Source: Chloroflexota bacterium
Lineage (GTDB): Bacteria; Chloroflexota; Anaerolineae; Promineifilales; Promineifilaceae
DNA length: 48,291 nucleotides
Assembly: GCA_018004935.1 (NCBI GenBank)
Contig: JAGNBF010000057.1
Location: 1-48,291, forward strand
Direction of reading: 5' to 3'
Position numbers and translations under genes: made by a program. The notes beneath the pieces are model-generated. The model was given only the letters and a program-made list of their open reading frames with translations. It ran no database searches and was not told the origin of the DNA. This document shows, piece after piece, positions 13,671-48,291 of the stretch (within the stretch, counting starts at the first letter, position 1; the number at the start of each line of letters is the position of its first letter).

Positions 13671-16565
13671 TCACGGCTCTGAATGTGTATGGTACGGCGA
13701 CGCTTCGGCCTGTGCCCAGGCATTATTTTCAAAAAAGTGAACGCGGCTTTCGGGTATGGGTAGTTTCTGTAAACGTAAGAACTCACTCTGTGCGGCCGCG
13801 GCCGCGGCATCTTGCCCCAACCCCTCATAACACAGGGCCAACATCTCATAAACCGCCGCCAGGTCCGGGTCAATCACCAGGGTTTGTTGAAATACCTCTA
13901 TGGCCTGTTCATACTGCGCCGCCAGATAAAAACTCTTCCCCAGTTCAAACAACACCTTCTGATCCCGGGGAAACTGCTCCCAAACCCCCTGCAACAACTG
14001 AATCGCTTCCGTAAAACGACCCTGTCGCTGTCGCAAAACCCCTAAATACGCCCGCGCCCGCCAGGACATCGGATTGATCATCTGTGCCCGCCCTAACCAA
14101 TCCTCCGCTTCCAACAAAGCATTTGTCTGTAAATGGACCAGGGCCACATTCACATATCCATCCACATAGGCGGGGTTTAAGGATACCGCCTGGGTAAATG
14201 CTGTTTCTGCTTCCACGTATAACCCCTGCTTCAATAAACCAATCCCGTATTGGTTAAAGCGCAGGTAATCTTCGGGCAGAGGTTGCCCTATTACCCCATC
14301 TTCTCCAATCACAACCATGTCAAGACTTAAATCCACAATCGGAAAACGGGGTGCGTCTTGGGCCACGGCCCATTCCGTGTACCACTGGTTAAACCGACGG
14401 TAACGCACCCGGCTCGTGATCACAAATGGCGCGGCCGCAGTCTCCGGGATGATCACCTCATAATGCACCACCTGTGTCTCCTGAGCCGGAATAGAATTAT
14501 TAAAAGCCACGCCGTATTCATTCCACAAATCATGTTTGCGAATCCATTCCCCTTCCCCGGTAATCGGCGGCGCAATAAACTGGTGTGCGTTGGGGTCTAA
14601 AACCCCCGCCTCATCTATCAAGCCACTGCTGTAAACAATCTGGCCGCGCCCATCCATCACCTGGAACTCAAGCCACGCTTCATACAAATCAAGCGGCCCG
14701 GTGGGAAAACCATGCGCGATGTGATTCGTGACCATCACATCAAAGAGATACGTTTCTCCGGGGCGTAAAGGTGGGCTGGTACGGTTTAAAGGGGCCATAA
14801 TCGTGGCGTGCTCTGACTGTGTCAGCGCGAAAATATCCACTGCAATCTCCTCTCTCTCCAACCAGGCCACCGTTTCAGCCAGTTGTGTCTCATGCCCATA
14901 ATAAAAGGGGATGGCCGTATTGGCGGCAATATAGCGGTGTGATAACACCTCATCCACTTGCCCTCCCAGGTCATAAGAAGGCACGCTCTGCATATGGCAA
15001 TCGTTGCAAGTTTGCCTCTCCGCCACTGGGTACCAGACCATAACGGACTCGTGAGAAAAACCACTTAACTGCCAATCATCATATTGATCCTGCAACCGTA
15101 ACCAGTGATATTCATTGGTCTGTTCGTCAATAAACTGTTTATGGCACAGCGAACAATACTCCGGCTCTTTATAAAACGGTTTCATAAAGGTGTCGCTATG
15201 CGGTCCCGGTTTCAAGCGAATCAGTAGATAGTTCAAATATTCTGGTATGGCTCCTTCTTGTTCCCAGAAGAGATATTGATCGGGCGGCGCAAACGTATAG
15301 GCACTTGTTCCCGTCAGATCATTAATTTTGGTAATTGAATGGCAGGCAATACAAGAAATCCCTTCATTGGGATGGCTATTTCTCACCGGCCCGGAGACAT
15401 CCATCTTGCCTGAAAGCAAGGCCAGCGGATCATGGCAACCACCACAATAACGCGTCGCATTAGGTCCCTCTGTAGCCATCATCTCCAGCAAAGCCTGTTC
15501 AAACCAGGGGTTGTCTGTTGAATAGCGGTGAACCGATTCGGCCCATTGTTCATACACATCGGTATGGCAGTTGGTTTGACCACAGCTTTGGGAATCAGCC
15601 ATCAGGGCCTCGTTAATAAAGGCCATATCCGGCGTCGTAGGTTGGCTGGGAGCGAAGGGGTTATCTCCGTAGGGGTAGGTATAGCCCGGTACGTCAATGG
15701 TGGCAGGCCATGACGAGCGGTAACGAAGCCCCAGCCCGACAGTTAGTAACACCGCTCCTAGCAGTAGAGAAACGGTAACAGGCAAACCACGCTTGATGGG
15801 AAGGGCCGTTGTTTTTTTAGGTGGTCTGGCAACCGGCTCTTTTAACGCTACTCGTGCTTCTGCCCAGGCCAGACCCGGATACAGCCGTTGGCCCAGGCTT
15901 AAGAACCGGGCTGTCATTTGTGGGTCATCCAGCCTGTTGATCAGGGCTACCATTTTGTCAGCCTTAGAGTTTCCGGGCAGGTGACGGTAATTGATGTTGA
16001 TGCGGCCGCAAAAAGCCAACAATTCCCCCTGATTACTTCGTTCCGCCAGCGTCCGGGCCAACACCTCAAGGCACGCTTTGCCAACAGCATCCTGCCTTAC
16101 CCCCAACCGGGCCGCGTCACGTCTGCCCTTCTGCCGCTGATACGCTACGATGAGATGGTGTCCCAGACCCCCACACCCGGCCAGACTCACAACAATATGG
16201 CTCCAATACACCCAGGCAACTTTGCCAGAGACACCTGTAAAAACCATTACTACGCCGGTCAACAACGAGCCGATAATCAAAATACCCGCCCCATGACCTA
16301 TCCAGCGATAGCTTCGGGAGACACGGCGTTCTGTGCCATTGGCCCGATGCACCAACCAGTGCCGGAGGTAGAAATAGCTCATCAAAAGACCGGCTACAAT
16401 GCCAACACCCGTATGAAACAACACATTGAACTGGATAAAAAAATGGGTACTGGGCCAAAAAAAGGTGATAAGCCCGGAAACGGCCACAAAGAGAAAGAGG
16501 GCAAAGGTGACGAGGAAAAAGGTTGTTTTCCAGGGGTTTTTTCTAAACGATAACAAACGCATCAT
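13671..16565 (-). CDS. Membrane multiheme cytochrome c with EAD-like domain and TPRs
   Basis: 964 residues from ATG 16565; ATGs at 16577 and 16607 are possible but lie in a duplicated segment. Residues 10-140 hold four membrane helices with several His (FNVLFHTGVG, YLRHWLVH, WIGHGAG, WSHIVVSLAG, LGHHLIVA), suggesting b-type heme ligands. Residues about 150-235 form a soluble helical module (EVLARTLAERSNQGELLAFC, INYRHLPGNSKADKMVALIN, RLYPGLAW) that reads like an effector-associated domain (EAD1-like). A fifth helix follows, then five heme sites: CGQTNCH (residue 328, CX4CH), CGGCH (374), CIACH (405), CSLCH (471) and CNDCH (520). After a beta domain, residues about 760-940 are TPR units. The family resembles cytochrome c554-like TPR proteins that move electrons across the membrane. 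Partner and substrate unknown. Confidence 0.85.
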   Translation of the reverse strand: MMRLLSFRKNPWKTTFFLVTFALFLFVAVSGLITFFWPSTHFFIQFNVLFHTGVGIVAGLLMSYFYLRHWLVHRANGTERRVSRSYRWIGHGAGILIIGSLLTGVVMVFTGVSGKVAWVYWSHIVVSLAGCGGLGHHLIVAYQRQKGRRDAARLGVRQDAVGKACLEVLARTLAERSNQGELLAFCGRININYRHLPGNSKADKMVALINRLDDPQMTARFLSLGQRLYPGLAWAEARVALKEPVARPPKKTTALPIKRGLPVTVSLLLGAVLLTVGLGLRYRSSWPATIDVPGYTYPYGDNPFAPSQPTTPDMAFINEALMADSQSCGQTNCHTDVYEQWAESVHRYSTDNPWFEQALLEMMATEGPNATRYCGGCHDPLALLSGKMDVSGPVRNSHPNEGISCIACHSITKINDLTGTSAYTFAPPDQYLFWEQEGAIPEYLNYLLIRLKPGPHSDTFMKPFYKEPEYCSLCHKQFIDEQTNEYHWLRLQDQYDDWQLSGFSHESVMVWYPVAERQTCNDCHMQSVPSYDLGGQVDEVLSHRYIAANTAIPFYYGHETQLAETVAWLEREEIAVDIFALTQSEHATIMAPLNRTSPPLRPGETYLFDVMVTNHIAHGFPTGPLDLYEAWLEFQVMDGRGQIVYSSGLIDEAGVLDPNAHQFIAPPITGEGEWIRKHDLWNEYGVAFNNSIPAQETQVVHYEVIIPETAAAPFVITSRVRYRRFNQWYTEWAVAQDAPRFPIVDLSLDMVVIGEDGVIGQPLPEDYLRFNQYGIGLLKQGLYVEAETAFTQAVSLNPAYVDGYVNVALVHLQTNALLEAEDWLGRAQMINPMSWRARAYLGVLRQRQGRFTEAIQLLQGVWEQFPRDQKVLFELGKSFYLAAQYEQAIEVFQQTLVIDPDLAAVYEMLALCYEGLGQDAAAAAAQSEFLRLQKLPIPESRVHFFENNAWAQAEASPYHTHSEP

Positions 16566-16572
16566 CCCTGCC

Positions 16573-16732
16573 GCCATTCGGAAAAATGAAGCCCCAGCAA
16601 GCTCCAAAATGGATTTGAGTAATCATGGTACACTTGATTTGTAGCAACCATAAACAAGTTTTGAGTATAACTATTGTTAAAGGCAAGAGTATCGCTCTTG
16701 GGCATTACCAGGGATTAGAAAAGAATGATTTT
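16573..16732 (-). pseudogene. Duplicated 5' fragment of the PaaI-like thioesterase gene
   Basis: These 160 bases align without gaps to 22623-22782, with 24 mismatches (85% identical). On the minus strand they encode a start like that of the thioesterase at 22285-22701 (MVATNQVYHDYSNPF..., then LLGLHFSEW), plus its upstream region. The similarity ends exactly where the cytochrome gene begins, so a promoter and 27-codon fragment now sits in front of that gene. An upstream in-frame TAA and the abrupt end show it is not an intact gene. Confidence 0.8.
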
Positions 16733-35833: not shown

Positions 35834-36562
35834 TCAGTTTCGGCCGTTCCCTGGGACCGGTAGCCCGGCCTCGATCCATGCCTGTACGCCGCCATCCAGA
35901 ATATTCACGTTGCTATAACCCATGTCGTGCAGGAGTTTGCCACCCAACGCCCCTAGTGGCCCCAAGATACAGGTGGTAATGATGGGCCGGTTATGATCCG
36001 ATAGGTGTGGCGATTGCCATTCTTGGGGCAGTGTATGATCCGCCTGATAGGTCAATGAACCGTAAGAGATGTTGACAGCACCCGGAACTGTTCCCGTAGC
36101 CGCGACCTCAGCGGCGTCACGCACATCAATAACCAGGAGATTGGGTTCTTCTTGCAAACGGCGGTAGGCATCGGTGGGGCTGATGATAAGAACGGACTGG
36201 TACGCGGCCGCAGCCATTCCATTAAACGTCAACGGTACACCATACTGTTCACCTACTGGAGCGCGGGTGATAGCTGACTGCGCCGGCAAGTAGTCAAACC
36301 CTTTAACGGTGACATCCGTCCACAGGGGATATTCGCGAAGTTGGGTCACAATTGGTCCATTTACGTATTCATTGTAAGTGGATTCATCGGCGAAAAGATA
36401 GAGACCCCCTGCTTCGCCCTGTTCTTTATTGATGATCCAGATTTTCCACAACAAACCGGGCACATCAGCAAAGAAGTGCGCCCCTTCTGTTCCATTTTGT
36501 CGCTCAAACTCCTCGGCAGGAACGACCAACCGACCATTGATTTGCACAATTTTCTGGGACAT
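35834..36562 (-). CDS. YdhR-like domain fused to a rhodanese domain
   Basis: 242 residues from ATG 36562 with AGGAG 6 nt upstream; the frame extends to 36613 without a site. Residues 1-105 match the putative monooxygenase YdhR pattern: KIVQINGRLVVPAEEFER, GLLWKIWIINKEQGEAGGLY, FADESTYNEYVNG and VTVKGFDYLPA. Residues about 130-242 are a rhodanese domain: LLVIDVRDAAEVAATGTVPG, HTLPQEWQ and the Cys loop ITTCILGPLGALGG. Rhodanese enzymes transfer sulfane sulfur through that Cys; the YdhR-like half is a dimeric ferredoxin-like fold. Fusion suggests sulfur or redox chemistry on a small substrate. Cytosolic. Confidence 0.83.
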   Translation of the reverse strand: MSQKIVQINGRLVVPAEEFERQNGTEGAHFFADVPGLLWKIWIINKEQGEAGGLYLFADESTYNEYVNGPIVTQLREYPLWTDVTVKGFDYLPAQSAITRAPVGEQYGVPLTFNGMAAAAYQSVLIISPTDAYRRLQEEPNLLVIDVRDAAEVAATGTVPGAVNISYGSLTYQADHTLPQEWQSPHLSDHNRPIITTCILGPLGALGGKLLHDMGYSNVNILDGGVQAWIEAGLPVPGNGRN

Positions 36563-36690
36563 GATTTTTCTCCTGGTTATGAACTCGAACCTGGTGTTCT
36601 TTGATCTGACCACTGGTTATTAGTGTATTGGTTATTGCCACTGGCGAAACCCATTTTCGCCAAAGTCCAATTGTGAAATAGGGGCAAGCT

Positions 36691-41823: not shown

Positions 41824-42471
41824 TTAGGAAAGCGTTACCATATCAAAAGGCTGCTCTGCCATTGGCAGCGGCTGACAAGCCCAGAAATCGGTCATCGTGT
41901 TGCTGTAATAGTAGGTTTCACCGGCACAAGAACGGCACAAGATGATCCCGTTGCGCCACACTTCCCGCTCATTGATAATCTCTTCACCACACTGGGCGCA
42001 GTTCACCCGCGCCCCGGCCCGGCTGATGAGTTGGGCCGAAGAGGTGATGAGTTGTACCGCCTGCTGATCGAATAGCTGCTCATCGGGAATGTACTGATAT
42101 CCTAACAGGTAGCTTTCCCATTGGCTTTGTGCTTCCGGGGCATAGAGCGTTGCCAGAGAGCGACTGTTGCGGGTGGGAATGAGACGTATGGCCTGGTCTG
42201 TTTGGGTGTCTACAAAGGTGGCGGCGATTTTGCCCAAATCCACCACGCGCAAGGTGCGCCTGCCGACCCAACAGTTAGTAGCTGTTGCCACCCCATCGCT
42301 AAAACAGCCATCCGTTTCCATAATGGTCAAGAGCCGTTTTGCCGTTTGCGGCAGAGGGATTGCCAACAAACGACCGGCTAACAATCCCATCCGTACGCCT
42401 AACACTTGCCGGGGGCAAAGGTGTTGGTGTAAGCGGGCACACTGGTCTAACAAATCGGTTAAGGTATTCAT
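41824..42471 (-). CDS. FmdE-like protein with C4 zinc ribbon
   Basis: 215 residues from ATG 42471, 4 nt after the stop of the NirS-like gene. The FmdE/FwdE pattern is clear: QCARLHQHLCPRQVLGVRMG (Cys-x3-His-x3-Cys of the N-terminal site), METDGCFSDGVATATNCWVG, RRTLRVVDLGKIAATFVDTQ and LISRAGARVN, then a zinc ribbon CAQCGEEI ... CRSCAG. FmdE is named for formylmethanofuran dehydrogenase, but most bacterial homologues lie near other Mo/W enzymes, where a cofactor or metal role is suspected. Position at the end of the nitrogen-oxide cluster supports an accessory role there (inference). Confidence 0.85.
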   Translation of the reverse strand: MNTLTDLLDQCARLHQHLCPRQVLGVRMGLLAGRLLAIPLPQTAKRLLTIMETDGCFSDGVATATNCWVGRRTLRVVDLGKIAATFVDTQTDQAIRLIPTRNSRSLATLYAPEAQSQWESYLLGYQYIPDEQLFDQQAVQLITSSAQLISRAGARVNCAQCGEEIINEREVWRNGIILCRSCAGETYYYSNTMTDFWACQPLPMAEQPFDMVTLS

Positions 42472-42475
42472 GGGG

Positions 42476-44320
42476 TTAATGACCAAGCATTTCGTAACGG
42501 CGTGAGGTGTTGAAAATGCCGGTGGGCGTAACGACGCCGGTCAGTTCAGCGACCAGGGCGAAGGTTTGGGCGTTGTAAACGCGTACCACATTCCCCTGCC
42601 AGTCGCTGATGTAAACAAATTGACCATCATCGGTTAGTTCCGGGTGCAGCGTTTGGATGCCGTCATTGATGATGTGGGTAACGGTCATCGTCTGTTTGCT
42701 AATGACATAGATATTGTTAGCCGGTGAACCCAGTAACGCATCGGCCCACAGATATGGGCTTTGCTCCTGGGTGCGAATAAACAGCCCTGACCCACTGGTG
42801 GGAATCTGAGCCACGATCTGGTTGGTGTTGAGGTTCCAAATGGACACCAGCCCCTGCCCAGCATGTGTGGTGGCCCCATAGGCGACGCCGTTATCTTCCC
42901 ACACAGCCCCGGAACCGGGGTGGGGGATGTTGCCGGTAGGGATTTGGGTCACAAGCTGCCAGTTAGGTACATCAATAACTGCCATCCAGTGATCCCCCTG
43001 TGAGGCCAGGTAGAAGCGGGTATTGTCAGGGCTGAGAAAACCGTCATGAAGGATGTGACCAACGTTTTCCAGTTTGTCTATGGGGAAGGTGGGTTGGCTG
43101 AAATCAATGCGCCATACCTGTCCGGCTTCTTTCAGGGCGATGATAAAGTAAGGGCCAACCAGGCTGGGGGCCACATCGCTGACAATCGCCACACGGGATT
43201 CAACCCATTGCCCGTCGGGATCGTACCCTTCGGTGGTGATGAGTTTGAGCGGTTCTAAAGTTTGGGCGTTGAGAATGACGGCGGTGTTGGGGATGTAGTT
43301 ACCGGCAATGAGGTATTGACCATCATCGGAGATAGCCAGACCACGAGAATCTATACCAACACGGATTTTGCGGGTGGCTTGAAGGGTGTACATGTCTATC
43401 TTGAATAACCAGCCGTCGCGGCCGATGTTGTAAACCCAACGCTGGTTGGTGGGGTCGAAGGCGTAACCGTGTGCCCGGTAGCTGGCATCAATTTGACCTA
43501 AAATTTGGTGATTGTCGCCGTTGATGACGGTAATACGCCGGGCTTCGCGCTCGGTGACGAGCATCAGGTTATCGAGGTCGCCGGTGTGGGTGGGCGTACT
43601 GGGCAGGGTGGATTCGTCTACGAGAATGGTGAGGGAGTCGGCGATTTGTTGAAGCGTCCAATCAGGATTGCCACCGGCGGGTTCGGTACGCATCAAACCA
43701 ATGAGAAGCCAGATTTCGGCGTCGCTCATGCCCATTGTGCCCCAGGGGGGCATGAGGGTTCCGGGGCGTCCATTTTTGACGGCATCGAAATAGAAGTTGT
43801 CCAGCTCGGTCAGCCGATCCGGGATAAGAGCCGGGCCAATGCCCCCTTCGCGGTTGGGGCCGTGACAGCCGCTGCACGAATCCTGATAGGCCTGGTTGAC
43901 AGCATTACCATCGAACCAGTCAGAGGGACCGTTGGGGGAGACGACGATGGTTCCCTCGGTAGCGGGGTGGCTGACGGAATGGATATGGTAGTTGCCGTTC
44001 GCGGCCGCAACCCAGCTAAATGATTGTCCGGGGTTCAAGACAGGGCTGATAATCGTGCCATCGTCACTAATGAGAGTGTGCGGGACGGTATCATGGTTGA
44101 TCCAGCGCACGGTGGACCCGGTTTTAACGGCCAGGACGTGCGGCGTGACTTGACCGTTGAGGATGAGAATGTTGTTGCTGTTGCTGGTAAGGAGCGGCAG
44201 GTATACGTCTGCCGCCGCACCCGCCGCATCACTGCTTTGGGCCGGTTGCGATTGGTAGAAGGTAAAAACAAGAATCAGGGTCAGGCTGAGAATAAGGAAA
44301 CCACTGGTTATTTTCTTCAT
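42476..44320 (-). CDS. NirS-like cytochrome cd1 with N-terminal cupredoxin-like domain
   Basis: 614 residues from ATG 44320, overlapping the upstream stop (ATGA). Signal peptide KKITSGFLILSLTLILVF, then DVYLPLLTSNSNN, then a cupredoxin-like fold (residues about 50-125: VRWINHDTVPHTLI, YHIHSVSHPATEGTIVV), where the usual Cys of the C..H..M copper loop is absent. A c-type heme domain has CSGCH at Cys149-His153 with Met in TLMPPWG. Residues about 250-614 form the d1 propeller: WVYNIGRDGWLFKIDM, KIRVGIDSRGLAISDDG, ILNAQTLEPLKLI, VGHILHDGFLSPDN, PHPGSGAVW, PTSGSGLFIRT and TPTGIFNTSRR. His284, His425 and His467 align with NirS His182, His327 and His369. It should be exported and reduce nitrite to NO; NirN-like function is the alternative. 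Confidence 0.87.
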   Translation of the reverse strand: MKKITSGFLILSLTLILVFTFYQSQPAQSSDAAGAAADVYLPLLTSNSNNILILNGQVTPHVLAVKTGSTVRWINHDTVPHTLISDDGTIISPVLNPGQSFSWVAAANGNYHIHSVSHPATEGTIVVSPNGPSDWFDGNAVNQAYQDSCSGCHGPNREGGIGPALIPDRLTELDNFYFDAVKNGRPGTLMPPWGTMGMSDAEIWLLIGLMRTEPAGGNPDWTLQQIADSLTILVDESTLPSTPTHTGDLDNLMLVTEREARRITVINGDNHQILGQIDASYRAHGYAFDPTNQRWVYNIGRDGWLFKIDMYTLQATRKIRVGIDSRGLAISDDGQYLIAGNYIPNTAVILNAQTLEPLKLITTEGYDPDGQWVESRVAIVSDVAPSLVGPYFIIALKEAGQVWRIDFSQPTFPIDKLENVGHILHDGFLSPDNTRFYLASQGDHWMAVIDVPNWQLVTQIPTGNIPHPGSGAVWEDNGVAYGATTHAGQGLVSIWNLNTNQIVAQIPTSGSGLFIRTQEQSPYLWADALLGSPANNIYVISKQTMTVTHIINDGIQTLHPELTDDGQFVYISDWQGNVVRVYNAQTFALVAELTGVVTPTGIFNTSRRYEMLGH

Positions 44321-45339
44321 AGGATAGATTGGGACTGGGGTGAGGAGTGAGAAGGGGTTGTTTGTGGTCGCGCCAGCCACCACAAAGCGATGAGGGCACA
44401 AAATAGCTGGGAACTCATTTGCGGGGCATAGCCTGCGGCCGCCAATAGGGCCAACGCGACAGCGACCGGGGGATTTTTACGCCAGCAGGTTAGGAATGTG
44501 ACAATGGCCAGACACAACGCGGCCGCGTACAACATCCAGGGTAGGTAGAACGAAAGGCCGGTTGACCAGATGACCAGAATACCGGTCATAGCCGGGTCAC
44601 GCCCATACAGCAGGGCAAAGAAGGCTGTGGGCAGGAGAGCGATAAACCAGGTGTGCCACGCGGCCGCGCGACCATGGACCCACCACAAAGCGATCAGGCT
44701 GAATACAACCAACCCTTCCCCCAGGTTAAACAGCAGGCCGGTTAGGGGGGCAGGGCCAGGCAGGTGCAGGACTGCGTACCAGACGGGCATCATCTGGTAG
44801 ATAACGCCACTGCCAAGTGTCGCCACGACTGATAGATAAACCAGCCGGTTAGAAACAGGTGGTGAGGGGTGTGTTTGCAGGTATGAGAGGGTGAAAGAGG
44901 CCAGGAGCGTCAGGGTGAGCAGGTGGTGGAGCAACAACGACTCGTTGCTGGGGATGATAAATAGGAAGACCAGACTGAGCGTGACACGCCCGATCAGGAG
45001 TACCGGCCGCAGCCGTTCCCCTTTGTGCTGCCATTCGTACCAGGCCAGCCAAACGAGGATGAAAACAGCGAGTAGGGTCACGAACGCGGCCGCGACCTGG
45101 CCCACTGTGTTCAACAGTTGGTAGCCCGTGATCAGGGCTGGGGTTTTGGGAATGTGAATTGCGGCTCGCGTCAGGGTGCGGCTGATCAACCATTCCGTCA
45201 ACGCACCCACCACCAGCCAACGGCTGTACGGCAGGAGCGTCAAGCTAAAAGGAACGGCTGGCTGGGAAGCAATGGGTTGTTCATTGTCCTTGTGCCCTGA
45301 TAGGAGTGCCGACCATTGGGCATAACGTTTTATTTCCAT
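44317..45339 (-). CDS. Multipass membrane protein, unrecognised, in the nitrogen-oxide cluster
   Basis: 340 residues with about nine membrane helices (e.g. VAAAFVTLLAVFILVWLAWY, VTLSLVFLFIIPSNESLLLH, FNLGEGLVVFSLIALWWVHG, WMLYAAALCLAIVTFLTCW). Several helices carry His (LLLHHLLTLTLLA, RAAAWHTW). The head (residues 1-30) is soluble. It is 20 nt after the gamma-subunit gene and overlaps the NirS-like start by 4 nt (ATGA), so it is firmly in the operon. I recognise no family. It may be a membrane electron-transfer or assembly partner, in place of NarI-type subunits. His content allows heme binding, but that is not shown. Confidence 0.7.
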   Translation of the reverse strand: MEIKRYAQWSALLSGHKDNEQPIASQPAVPFSLTLLPYSRWLVVGALTEWLISRTLTRAAIHIPKTPALITGYQLLNTVGQVAAAFVTLLAVFILVWLAWYEWQHKGERLRPVLLIGRVTLSLVFLFIIPSNESLLLHHLLTLTLLASFTLSYLQTHPSPPVSNRLVYLSVVATLGSGVIYQMMPVWYAVLHLPGPAPLTGLLFNLGEGLVVFSLIALWWVHGRAAAWHTWFIALLPTAFFALLYGRDPAMTGILVIWSTGLSFYLPWMLYAAALCLAIVTFLTCWRKNPPVAVALALLAAAGYAPQMSSQLFCALIALWWLARPQTTPSHSSPQSQSIL

Positions 45340-45359: not shown

Positions 45360-46451
45360 TTATTTCTTGCCCGGCAATTTGAATAACAAGAAAACACTCC
45401 CCATAAACGCCAGCATCAATAAGAAGACGAGGATCATGGGGACAAAAATGTAAGGCAAGGCTTCTAATGAGTTGATGTTAGAAGTAGAGCGGGTGGTAGA
45501 GGTTGTCGCTGTATCTGCGGCCGCGGCAGTTCCCGTATCTGTCGTGGTAGGAGCCACCGCGTTTTCTCCCAAATGGAGCGCGATCCATTGAGAGGTGGAT
45601 TTTTGCCCGTTACGTTCCTCATTAGTCCCATCCCAGGCCGCGACAGCCATCGGGTATACCACCCCATTCGCAAACCGGACATCATCTCCTTCCGCTGTTT
45701 CCAGATCGCGGGTAAAAATGACCCGCCATGCACCCTCAGACCAGGCCCCATATCCCTGCACATTCTGCATCTCGACCGGTTGTGAGGTGAGGGAACCAAA
45801 ACCGCCCGCAATTAAATCCTCCACCGGGGAGGCCAGGGTGACACTGGCTAACAAATTGCCTGCCGCTAACGCCGTCACATAATTCGTATCTTTGTAATCA
45901 GCGACCCCGGCGGCTTTACCGGCGGTTTCGTCAGCAAAGGGGTAAAAGTCCACATCCATATCGGGATAGACTGTCTCCACATCCTGACGGGCCACTAAAT
46001 CGGCCTGCCAGTCTGCCTTCCAATGCCAGATGTTGACATCACCCCCTTCCTGACCCATACAATAAAACGGCTCCCCTTCCGCCAGAGGGAATTGCAGCGC
46101 AACCGCGTCTCTAAAGTCTTGCACCCGCACGGTGGAGCTATCTTCGGTCTCGTCGGCCCATTCCACACTAAAGGCAATTTGTTCGTTGTTGTAAAGAGCG
46201 CGGATTGTGACTGCCTTGATGTTGGTTTCGGTCAGGAAAGGGCGGGCGACAGTTTGGGCACTGAGTGGTACTTCAACGGCCGTGGTCTGCTGCCACAAGG
46301 GAGAATCCAGGTCAGCCACGGGTAGGTTGCCGCTGATTTCGGTGGCGACGATGGTAACCCCCTGGCTGCTGGCGAGGGGGATTTTCCAGAAAGTGAGCAG
46401 CGCGGCCGCGCCCAACAAAATGAGTAGAATAAAACGAGAGCGTGTCTTCAT
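45360..46451 (-). CDS. Ethylbenzene-dehydrogenase-type heme b gamma subunit
   Basis: 363 residues from ATG 46451 with GGAG 6 nt upstream. Signal peptide RFILLILLGAAALLTFWKIP, then the DOMON-like fold of EbdC/DdhC/PcrC/ClrC relatives: GNLPVADLDSPLWQQTTAVE, VTIRALYNNEQIAFSVEWAD, FRDAVALQFPL, EPFYCMGQEGGDVNIWHWKA, and VRFANGVVYPMAVAAWDGTN. Met in YCMGQE and Lys in WHWKAD are the likely heme b ligands, as in EbdC. A Thr-rich stretch and a C-terminal helix (FVPMILVFLLMLAFMGSVFL) anchor it to the membrane with the heme outside. It shows that the enzyme faces outward. Confidence 0.88.
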   Translation of the reverse strand: MKTRSRFILLILLGAAALLTFWKIPLASSQGVTIVATEISGNLPVADLDSPLWQQTTAVEVPLSAQTVARPFLTETNIKAVTIRALYNNEQIAFSVEWADETEDSSTVRVQDFRDAVALQFPLAEGEPFYCMGQEGGDVNIWHWKADWQADLVARQDVETVYPDMDVDFYPFADETAGKAAGVADYKDTNYVTALAAGNLLASVTLASPVEDLIAGGFGSLTSQPVEMQNVQGYGAWSEGAWRVIFTRDLETAEGDDVRFANGVVYPMAVAAWDGTNEERNGQKSTSQWIALHLGENAVAPTTTDTGTAAAADTATTSTTRSTSNINSLEALPYIFVPMILVFLLMLAFMGSVFLLFKLPGKK

Positions 46452-47346: not shown

Positions 47347-48291
47347 TCAAATTGAATTGAGCCGATCAACCGACCGCTCAAACAACGGTTCAACCACGCT
47401 CAAACGAGCCACTTCGCGCCCTTTGGCGTCAAAGCCGATGACCGTATCGTCATACATTTGCCAGGGTTGACCGTTGATTTCGGCTTCTCTTACCAATGGC
47501 CCCTCTTCAATCTCAAAGCGAAAGACCATTTTCTGGGTGGCTCGGAACAACTGCAACAGGGCCAACACAGTACGTGAAGGCACGGTATACCGAGCGATGG
47601 CCTGATCCACGCCAGGGCCAAACATCTGGCGCAGGTAAGCGCGGGGTGCCCAGCGGGGTGGGATGTAGTAGATGTTCGGTTCGGTGCCAAATTGGGGGTA
47701 GAGAGGCAGCGCGATTTTTTCTTCACGAATCAGGTAATACAGGGGGTTGCTCAAGTTTTCGACCCATGTGCCGTCTTCGGCAATGTCTACTAAGCCATTG
47801 AGGCGGATTTTGCCGGGGCAGACAGCCATACAACGGGTTTCCATGGGCACACCGTCGCTCAGAGGATCGTTGCCTTCAACACGAGGGTAACAGGCCACAC
47901 ATTTCTCGCTGGTGTGGGTCGTGCCCCGGTACATAGATTTTTTGTAAGGACATTGTTCGACACATTTACGGTAGCCCCGGCAGCGTTCCTGATCAATGAG
48001 GACAATGCCGTCTTCAGGGCGTTTGTAGATGGCCTGGCGTGGGCACGCGGCCGCGCACGCTGGATAGGTACAATGGTTACAAATGCGCTGCAAGTAGAAG
48101 AACCAGGTCTGATGCACCGGCAGTGAGGCCCCTTCTTCACTTAACCCCAGGCGTCCCCCCTTGTACTTGGTGGAGGTGTCCTCATAAAAATTGGGCGCAC
48201 TCCATTCCGTATCCTGAGGTAAATAACCGAGAGCCTGGTCGCCGCTTTGGGTTTCAGCGGCCGCTTCCGTAATCGTCAAACCCTGATACAC
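47347..48291 (-). CDS. NarH/NxrB-type iron-sulfur subunit of a type II DMSO-reductase-family enzyme (N-terminus outside window)
   Basis: At least 314 residues; the frame is open at the right edge, so the GTG at 48291 is not necessarily the start, and the first cluster's Cys set lies outside. Visible clusters: CNHCTYPACAAACPRQAIYK, CRGYRKCVEQCPYKK and EKCVACYPRVEG with RCMAVCPGKIRLNG. Tyr in CRGYRKC takes the place of one Cys, as in the NarH [3Fe-4S] site (Trp or Tyr). The CVACYPR ... CPGKIR pair is as in EbdB, DdhB, ClrB and NxrB. The C-terminal IYYIPPRWAPRAYLRQMFGP is the family's usual end. It passes electrons between the Mo subunit (beyond 48291) and the heme b gamma subunit. Confidence 0.9.
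   Translation of the reverse strand: MYQGLTITEAAAETQSGDQALGYLPQDTEWSAPNFYEDTSTKYKGGRLGLSEEGASLPVHQTWFFYLQRICNHCTYPACAAACPRQAIYKRPEDGIVLIDQERCRGYRKCVEQCPYKKSMYRGTTHTSEKCVACYPRVEGNDPLSDGVPMETRCMAVCPGKIRLNGLVDIAEDGTWVENLSNPLYYLIREEKIALPLYPQFGTEPNIYYIPPRWAPRAYLRQMFGPGVDQAIARYTVPSRTVLALLQLFRATQKMVFRFEIEEGPLVREAEINGQPWQMYDDTVIGFDAKGREVARLSVVEPLFERSVDRLNSI

Follow-up and report, generated by a model that had tools for sequence, protein, structure and literature searches.

NirS of Pseudomonas and Paracoccus, the dihydro-heme d1 dehydrogenase NirN, the C1-C2-NirS proteins of Chloroflexi and the nitrite oxidoreductase (NXR) operon of Kuenenia (7b04) are the described systems closest to the locus reported here. 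The roles of the NirS residues used for mapping are given in PMC7278500 and PMC8756737, and heme d1 synthesis starts from siroheme and uses NirDLGH, NirJ, NirF/NirC and NirN (PMC13168839). Schwartz et al. (2022) reported C1-C2-NirS in Chloroflexi and, in a limited number of these, a further cupredoxin at the N-terminus; the available text of that paper states that no C2-NirS without C1 was seen in Chloroflexi (PMC8756737). A cupredoxin fusion in Chloroflexi NirS-type proteins, namely cupredoxin-C1-C2-NirS, is thus partly known already. Hemp et al. (2015) credited Levilinea saccharolytica (about 99% complete) with NirS (PMC4653796). NXR converts nitrite to nitrate and also runs in reverse, and the available text on the Kuenenia gene cluster describes no cd1 gene (PMC8387239).

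In the 48,291-nucleotide stretch of Chloroflexi DNA analysed here (the window), a protein encoded on the minus strand shares with NirS a c domain, a d1 propeller, and counterparts of the heme c His/Met ligands and of His182, Arg156, Arg198, His327, His369 and Trp498. It differs from NirS in its placement in a clade of its own, a serine in place of Arg372, an extra cupredoxin, a genome without recognised d1 biosynthesis genes, and an NXR rather than a nir operon. With C1-C2-NirS it has in common the class Anaerolineae, an extra N-terminal electron-transfer domain (a cupredoxin in some) and the lack of a nir operon, and the C1-C2-NirS genomes in our panel likewise have no recognised d1 genes. 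However, its sequence is only 31-35% identical to C1-C2-NirS, has no C1 domain, and falls outside NirS, whereas C1-C2-NirS lies inside NirS with full support; membership in that group was therefore ruled out. With one CxxCH and no C1, the family of the window protein is, by sequence, a C2-NirS-like form without C1 in Chloroflexi. What makes the locus most interesting is that the protein forms its own clade, sits in an NXR operon and is encoded in a genome without a recognised heme d1 route, three points that were absent from an earlier note on this DNA.

Domains of the fusion protein and their ligand sites

The gene and its domains are as follows.

42476-44320, minus strand: cupredoxin - cytochrome c - d1-propeller protein, 614 aa (translation, Pfam, AlphaFold2 model)
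44240-44320, minus strand: hydrophobic N-terminal helix, residues 1-27, a candidate signal peptide or membrane anchor (sequence; model)
43937-44179, minus strand: cupredoxin domain, about residues 48-128, with a degenerate copper site of H81, S115 (Cys position), H118 and T121 (Met position) (Pfam, alignment, fold comparison)
43688-43900, minus strand: c-type cytochrome domain, about residues 141-211, with CSGCH at 149-153 and ligands H153/M190 (Pfam, alignment)
42500-43579, minus strand: d1-type eight-bladed propeller, residues 248-607, with H284, H425, H467, R258, R301 and W574 (Pfam, alignment, model)

Pfam placed Cupredoxin_1 at 28-127 (E 1.4e-7, 31.9 bits against a cut-off of 27), Cytochrome_CBB3 at 141-207 and Cytochrom_D1 at 248-607 (E 1.7e-80), and phmmer against PDB sequences matched NirN, NirS and NirF as well as amicyanin (59-127). 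The best-scoring solved relative was NirN (236 bits), which was also best by fold. The AlphaFold2 model of the full protein (mean pLDDT 77.7) superposes on NirN and NirS across the c and d1 domains, and its N-terminal helix covers residues 5-23 in a part of low confidence. These results bear out the description in the earlier note of a NirS-like cd1 protein carrying an extra cupredoxin domain; the note had counted about 75 cupredoxin-like residues ahead of the c and d1 domains, and the domain is real, although it measures about 80 residues and a hydrophobic helix stands ahead of it. The note had also proposed a search for the same three-domain order, which was found again in relatives of 47-70% identity, so the fusion is more than a chance event.

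Alignment placed the Pseudomonas NirS heme c ligands His51 and Met88 at His153 and Met190, and C149, C152, H153 and M190 were unchanged across seven aligned sequences. As previously read from the letters, the three d1-site histidines of NirS (His182, His327, His369) align with His284, His425 and His467, which were present in 23/23 family rows and 19/19 NirS rows of the tree alignment. NirS Arg156, Arg198 and Trp498 correspond to Arg258, Arg301 and Trp574, and the equivalent of the Trp498 lid was kept in all 22 family members that reach that position. Arg372 is replaced by Ser470; a serine at this position also occurs in NirN. NirN differs from the family and from NirS in having Asp at the His425/His327 position (both NirN rows and 6rtd; Tyr in the one NirF examined), and the window genome has no recognised d1 pathway for such an enzyme to serve.

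Modelled alone from a 12-sequence alignment, the cupredoxin domain reached a mean pLDDT of 89.5 and matched purple cupredoxin 5fc9 (VIA Z 13.6, rmsd 1.1, 81 residues), the C-terminal cupredoxin of Nitrosopumilus copper oxidase 9cck (VIA Z 13.1), and also plastocyanin and amicyanin (VIA; Foldseek). A profile search with the domain recovered the same relatives by sequence. Structure prediction and superposition thus returned a cupredoxin and not the different fold that had been named as counting against the claim, and the N-terminal domain is, as modelled, a true cupredoxin fold. Its ligand set is incomplete: aligned with copper-intact relatives, the type 1 positions read His81, Ser115 (Cys position), His118 and Thr121 (Met position). 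The loop YHIHSVSHPATEG reads as quoted earlier, with Ser115 in place of the copper Cys, and the doubt expressed over type 1 copper was justified, as the domain cannot hold it in the usual way.

Across the 21 family N-termini aligned for a copper-site survey, the full His-Cys-His-Met set was present in seven (L063-L067, L070, L082), the Cys was lost in 12 (the window protein, L036, L057-L062, L068, L071, L074, L076), and a recognisable cupredoxin was absent in two (L077, L084). L072 and L073 have short N-termini that run directly into the c domain, and the sequences used for L069 and L075 began at the c domain, their N-termini lying outside the survey. The copper-intact rows present in the tree form one group. 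In the group of the window protein (UFB 98 with L069), the Cys is absent in every member whose N-terminus was read, and among the 12 Cys-less N-termini only the window protein retains both His positions. The suggestion that the domain carries another metal was not supported: in most of its nearest relatives the Cys is gone and the His ligands with it, whereas the sister group retains the full type 1 set, which makes a replacement metal unlikely and copper loss, rather than a swap for another metal, the best account of this pattern of residues. The protein may possibly take electrons differently, as also suggested previously.

Placement and distribution of the family

We built a tree of the d1 domain from 50 sequences, with a single long NirF branch as the root and two NirN rows; L053 (Natrinema) and L085, each split over two reading frames, and L082/L041, cut at a contig end, were left out. 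NirS (19 rows from Proteobacteria, Thermus and Chloroflexi C1-C2-NirS) was monophyletic without the window protein (UFB 100), and NirS, NirN and L083 also formed a group (UFB 100). The family joined three Campylobacterota sequences at UFB 93; a gap-trimmed rerun gave 86 for this union, 28 for the family alone and 100 for NirS. The AU tests used constrained trees from a fast-mode search. They rejected a union of the family with NirS (delta lnL 66.3, p 0.031), and assignment to NirS by best match was thereby ruled out. Placement within NirN, the outcome against which the earlier note had set its reading, was not recovered in the best tree, although a forced union with NirN (delta lnL 33.6, AU p 0.080, only two NirN rows) was disfavoured only. 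The tree thus indicates that the family is a clade of its own outside NirS, distinct from NirF too and probably from NirN. In the literature searched, which did not extend to subscription papers and preprints, we found no description of this clade as separate from NirS.

Family members were present in 8 of 298 genomes of the class, and 23 others had only the 31-35% identical proteins. A scan of a genome collection found the family in 29 loci, six of which were the same contigs as in the class search; hosts of the scan loci include Anaerolineae, Levilinea saccharolytica, two Actinobacteria bins, Sulfurovum, Sulfurimonas and a Thermofilaceae archaeon. The tree does not place L078 and L083 with the family; the Levilinea member (L073) is 60% identical to the window protein.

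Several of these loci hold related architectures. The Sulfurovum/Sulfurimonas proteins of L079, L080 (6189-9146, 6192-9146) and L081 (6870-9143) are 757-985 aa long, with differing N-terminal cytochrome parts and a C-terminal family-like d1 domain, and their host genomes also carry NirS and the full d1 pathway. In the Thermofilaceae archaeon (L078, 1442-3211), a weak cupredoxin match and a d1 propeller occur without CxxCH, and adjoining genes encode further cupredoxin-like domains. A Natrinema plasmid (L053, 8248-10193) carries a d1-domain relative, 37% identical, in two frames with no gene annotated. Near the family member of L069 (2261-5977; a Chloroflexi bin, data set of hydrothermal-vent style) are a short COX1-like protein and a multiheme cytochrome with similarity to hydrazine dehydrogenase/HAO (92.5 bits).

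The NXR operon and its neighbours

The cd1 gene stands in an operon of the order NxrA, a 98-aa protein, NxrB, TorD, NxrC, membrane protein, cd1 and FmdE, of which the window holds the following besides the cd1 gene.

47347-48291, minus strand: NxrB-like iron-sulfur subunit, truncated at the contig end, with its first part carried by contig C136 (Pfam, NCBIfam, contig overlap)
46527-47252, minus strand: TorD/NarJ-type assembly chaperone (Pfam, NCBIfam)
45360-46451, minus strand: NxrC-like heme b subunit of the EB_dh family (PF09459, TIGR03477)
44317-45339, minus strand: membrane protein of unmatched family, its stop codon overlapping the cd1 start codon (Pfam/NCBIfam; homologues in four other loci)
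41824-42486, minus strand: FmdE-domain protein with a zinc ribbon, directly downstream of the cd1 gene, likely start ATG 42471 (Pfam, neighbourhood comparison)

Because the first 127 bases of C136 are identical to the last 127 of the window, the two contigs adjoin, and the NxrA gene of the window genome lies on C136 (977-4429, L098). It is 85% identical to that of genome G224, whose large subunit matches Kuenenia NXR subunit A (7b04_B) over nearly its full length with 1709.7 bits, against 162 bits for perchlorate reductase, the next family, and under 100 for NarG. An NxrC homologue in L035 matches NXR subunit C (7b04_C) with 115.6 bits. With NxrA of the 7b04 kind, NxrB and an EB_dh NxrC all present, the operon is of the Kuenenia type, and homologues of these three subunits and of the chaperone precede the cd1 gene. 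It differs from that of Kuenenia in its Chloroflexi host and in the c-d1, membrane and FmdE proteins that follow. Slightly upstream on C136, and divergent, are a PilJ-type histidine kinase and a response regulator; their homologues in G224 are closest to NarQ/NarX (203 and 163 bits) and of LuxR type, respectively.

This operon is common to the window, L057, L058, L059 (= G224) and L060, which share the chaperone, NxrB, and NxrC or the membrane protein, together with the small protein and NxrA where the stretch reaches them; L060 has no called NxrC frame, and no FmdE was found there. Among the other family loci read, no shared neighbours were found, so a single neighbourhood for all members was ruled out, NXR linkage being confined to these five. 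The overlap of start and stop codons suggests that the membrane protein and the cd1 gene are co-expressed, and the FmdE gene starts within a few bases of the cd1 gene end. A role of the membrane protein as a cytochrome b that oxidises quinol was considered and set aside, since its five homologues share only one apparently conserved His and no Pfam or NCBIfam family matched.

No nitric oxide reductase was recognised in the window genome: its two full heme-copper oxidases have the oxidase Tyr (HPEVY, HPVVY), and the further candidates are one sequence cut at a contig end and one weak 21-bit match. Elsewhere in the window, 13671-16607 (minus strand) encodes a 978-aa protein in which multiheme cytochrome c554-type motifs precede TPR repeats, and 35834-36613 (minus strand) a ydhR-type monooxygenase-like domain fused to a rhodanese domain.

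Heme d1 biosynthesis and candidate function

In the window genome (96.6% complete), NirF, NirN, NirDLGH, NirJ and uroporphyrinogen-III methyltransferase were all not found. We extended the search to 26 genomes with a family member, eight from the class and 18 derived from the loci, the latter of unstated completeness. A second long d1 protein of NirF or NirN type was found in none of the 26, and uroporphyrinogen-III methyltransferase in eight and not in 18. A siroheme decarboxylase domain exceeded the cut-off in two (G049, G311), of which the G049 protein reads as an ordinary Lrp/AsnC regulator and the G311 one looks genuine. NirJ exceeded its cut-off in 0/26; as this cut-off also misses the positive controls, NirJ was judged by score, with 433 bits in G049 (inside a heme operon), 207 and 204 bits in two others and at most 144 bits in the rest. 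The controls were three relatives from Campylobacterota that have the complete heme d1 pathway; the same searches recovered every pathway gene in them, in a single cluster or close to it (NirJ 379-389 bits, NirF 84-87 bits).

Such results could be obtained from an ordinary NirS if its heme d1 genes had escaped assembly or diverged beyond recognition. The genome is not 100% complete, G311 has NirDLGH-type domains and G049 its NirJ-like protein, and nirS of Thermus adjoins a TIGR04053 radical SAM gene instead of classical NirJ. However, a NirF-like protein was missing from all family genomes and uroporphyrinogen-III methyltransferase from 18/26, whereas all were found in the three Campylobacterota; TIGR04053 is missing from the window genome and shows no clear link to cd1 genes (in 9/20 genomes with one versus 5/20 without), which also discounts it as a NirJ substitute; and grouping with NirS was rejected. 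We regard this explanation as very improbable.

The cofactor puzzle is wider than the family, since the 12 genomes with C1-C2-type NirS (among L011-L032) also lacked NirDLGH (0/12) and NirJ above 160 bits (0/12), with no recognised NirF. Searches of the Levilinea genome recovered none of NirF, NirDLGH, NirJ above 1e-30 or uroporphyrinogen-III methyltransferase, and the only d1-domain gene found was the family member. The propeller could bind heme b, say, or some further non-d1 tetrapyrrole, and the protein could perform a different redox chemistry on a nitrogen oxide while reusing the NirS geometry. The active-site His and Arg are retained while the window genome and most of the family lack the siroheme/d1 route, which is in keeping with this idea, as is the replacement of Arg372. 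Campylobacterota with a complete d1 route carry their own NirS beside the family-like protein, suggesting a separate job for the latter. There is, however, no direct evidence for another cofactor, and uptake of d1 or its precursors from neighbours could also account for three of eight unlinked facts. We know of no d1-fold enzyme that uses a tetrapyrrole other than heme d1, and hold this reading to be possible but on the unlikely side. Its broader form, which we likewise view with more doubt than confidence, is that the whole cd1-like clade, including the 'NirS' published for the isolate Levilinea saccharolytica, would use a non-d1 tetrapyrrole in hosts unable to make siroheme, one lineage having been built into the NXR operon.

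Alternatively, the d1 site may be empty and the protein an electron carrier or scaffold for NXR acting through its c heme. The window genome has no known d1 biosynthesis, in Kuenenia the nxr cluster includes a gene for the monoheme cytochrome c NXR-T, which is required for tubule formation (PMC8387239), and a scaffolding role has been reported for heme d1-free NirS (PMC7278500). Yet the strict conservation of H284, H425 and H467 and near-strict conservation of W574 would be unexpected in an empty site, and the majority of family members are not beside nxr genes; we consider it improbable.

The account we place first, with slightly less than even confidence, is that the family is a third class of NirS-like, tetrapyrrole-dependent nitrite reductase, here beside NXR, using imported d1 or another heme. 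As NXR works both ways, nitrate and then nitrite reduction would be the natural reading: the NXR of the operon would most likely run as a nitrate reductase, and the c-d1 protein, predicted to be exported, would reduce the nitrite so made to nitric oxide. The c heme (His153/Met190) would receive the electrons and hand them on to a putative iron tetrapyrrole held by His284, with nitrite bound by His425 and His467 as by NirS His327/His369. The cupredoxin would have begun as a type 1 copper electron-entry domain, as it still would be in the sister group, and in the window protein would be a structural remnant that has lost its copper. We counted in favour the NirS ligands and catalytic His in 23/23 rows, the NXR operon, the NarQ/NarX-like kinase and the cupredoxin ligand loss, and against it the lack of a d1 route and of a nitric oxide reductase, the Arg372 to Ser470 change, NXR linkage in only five loci, and the NirN union at p 0.080. 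We know of no experiment on any member of the family.

NirS genes in genomes and metagenomes are counted as proof of nitric oxide formation from nitrite. The clade described here is annotated as NirS and lies outside NirS, mostly in genomes without a recognised heme d1 route, implying either that the cofactor is imported or made by an unknown route, or that a cd1 fold carries a different heme. Its pairing with NXR suggests a compact nitrate-to-nitric oxide (or reverse) module in Chloroflexi such as those that occur in anammox reactors.
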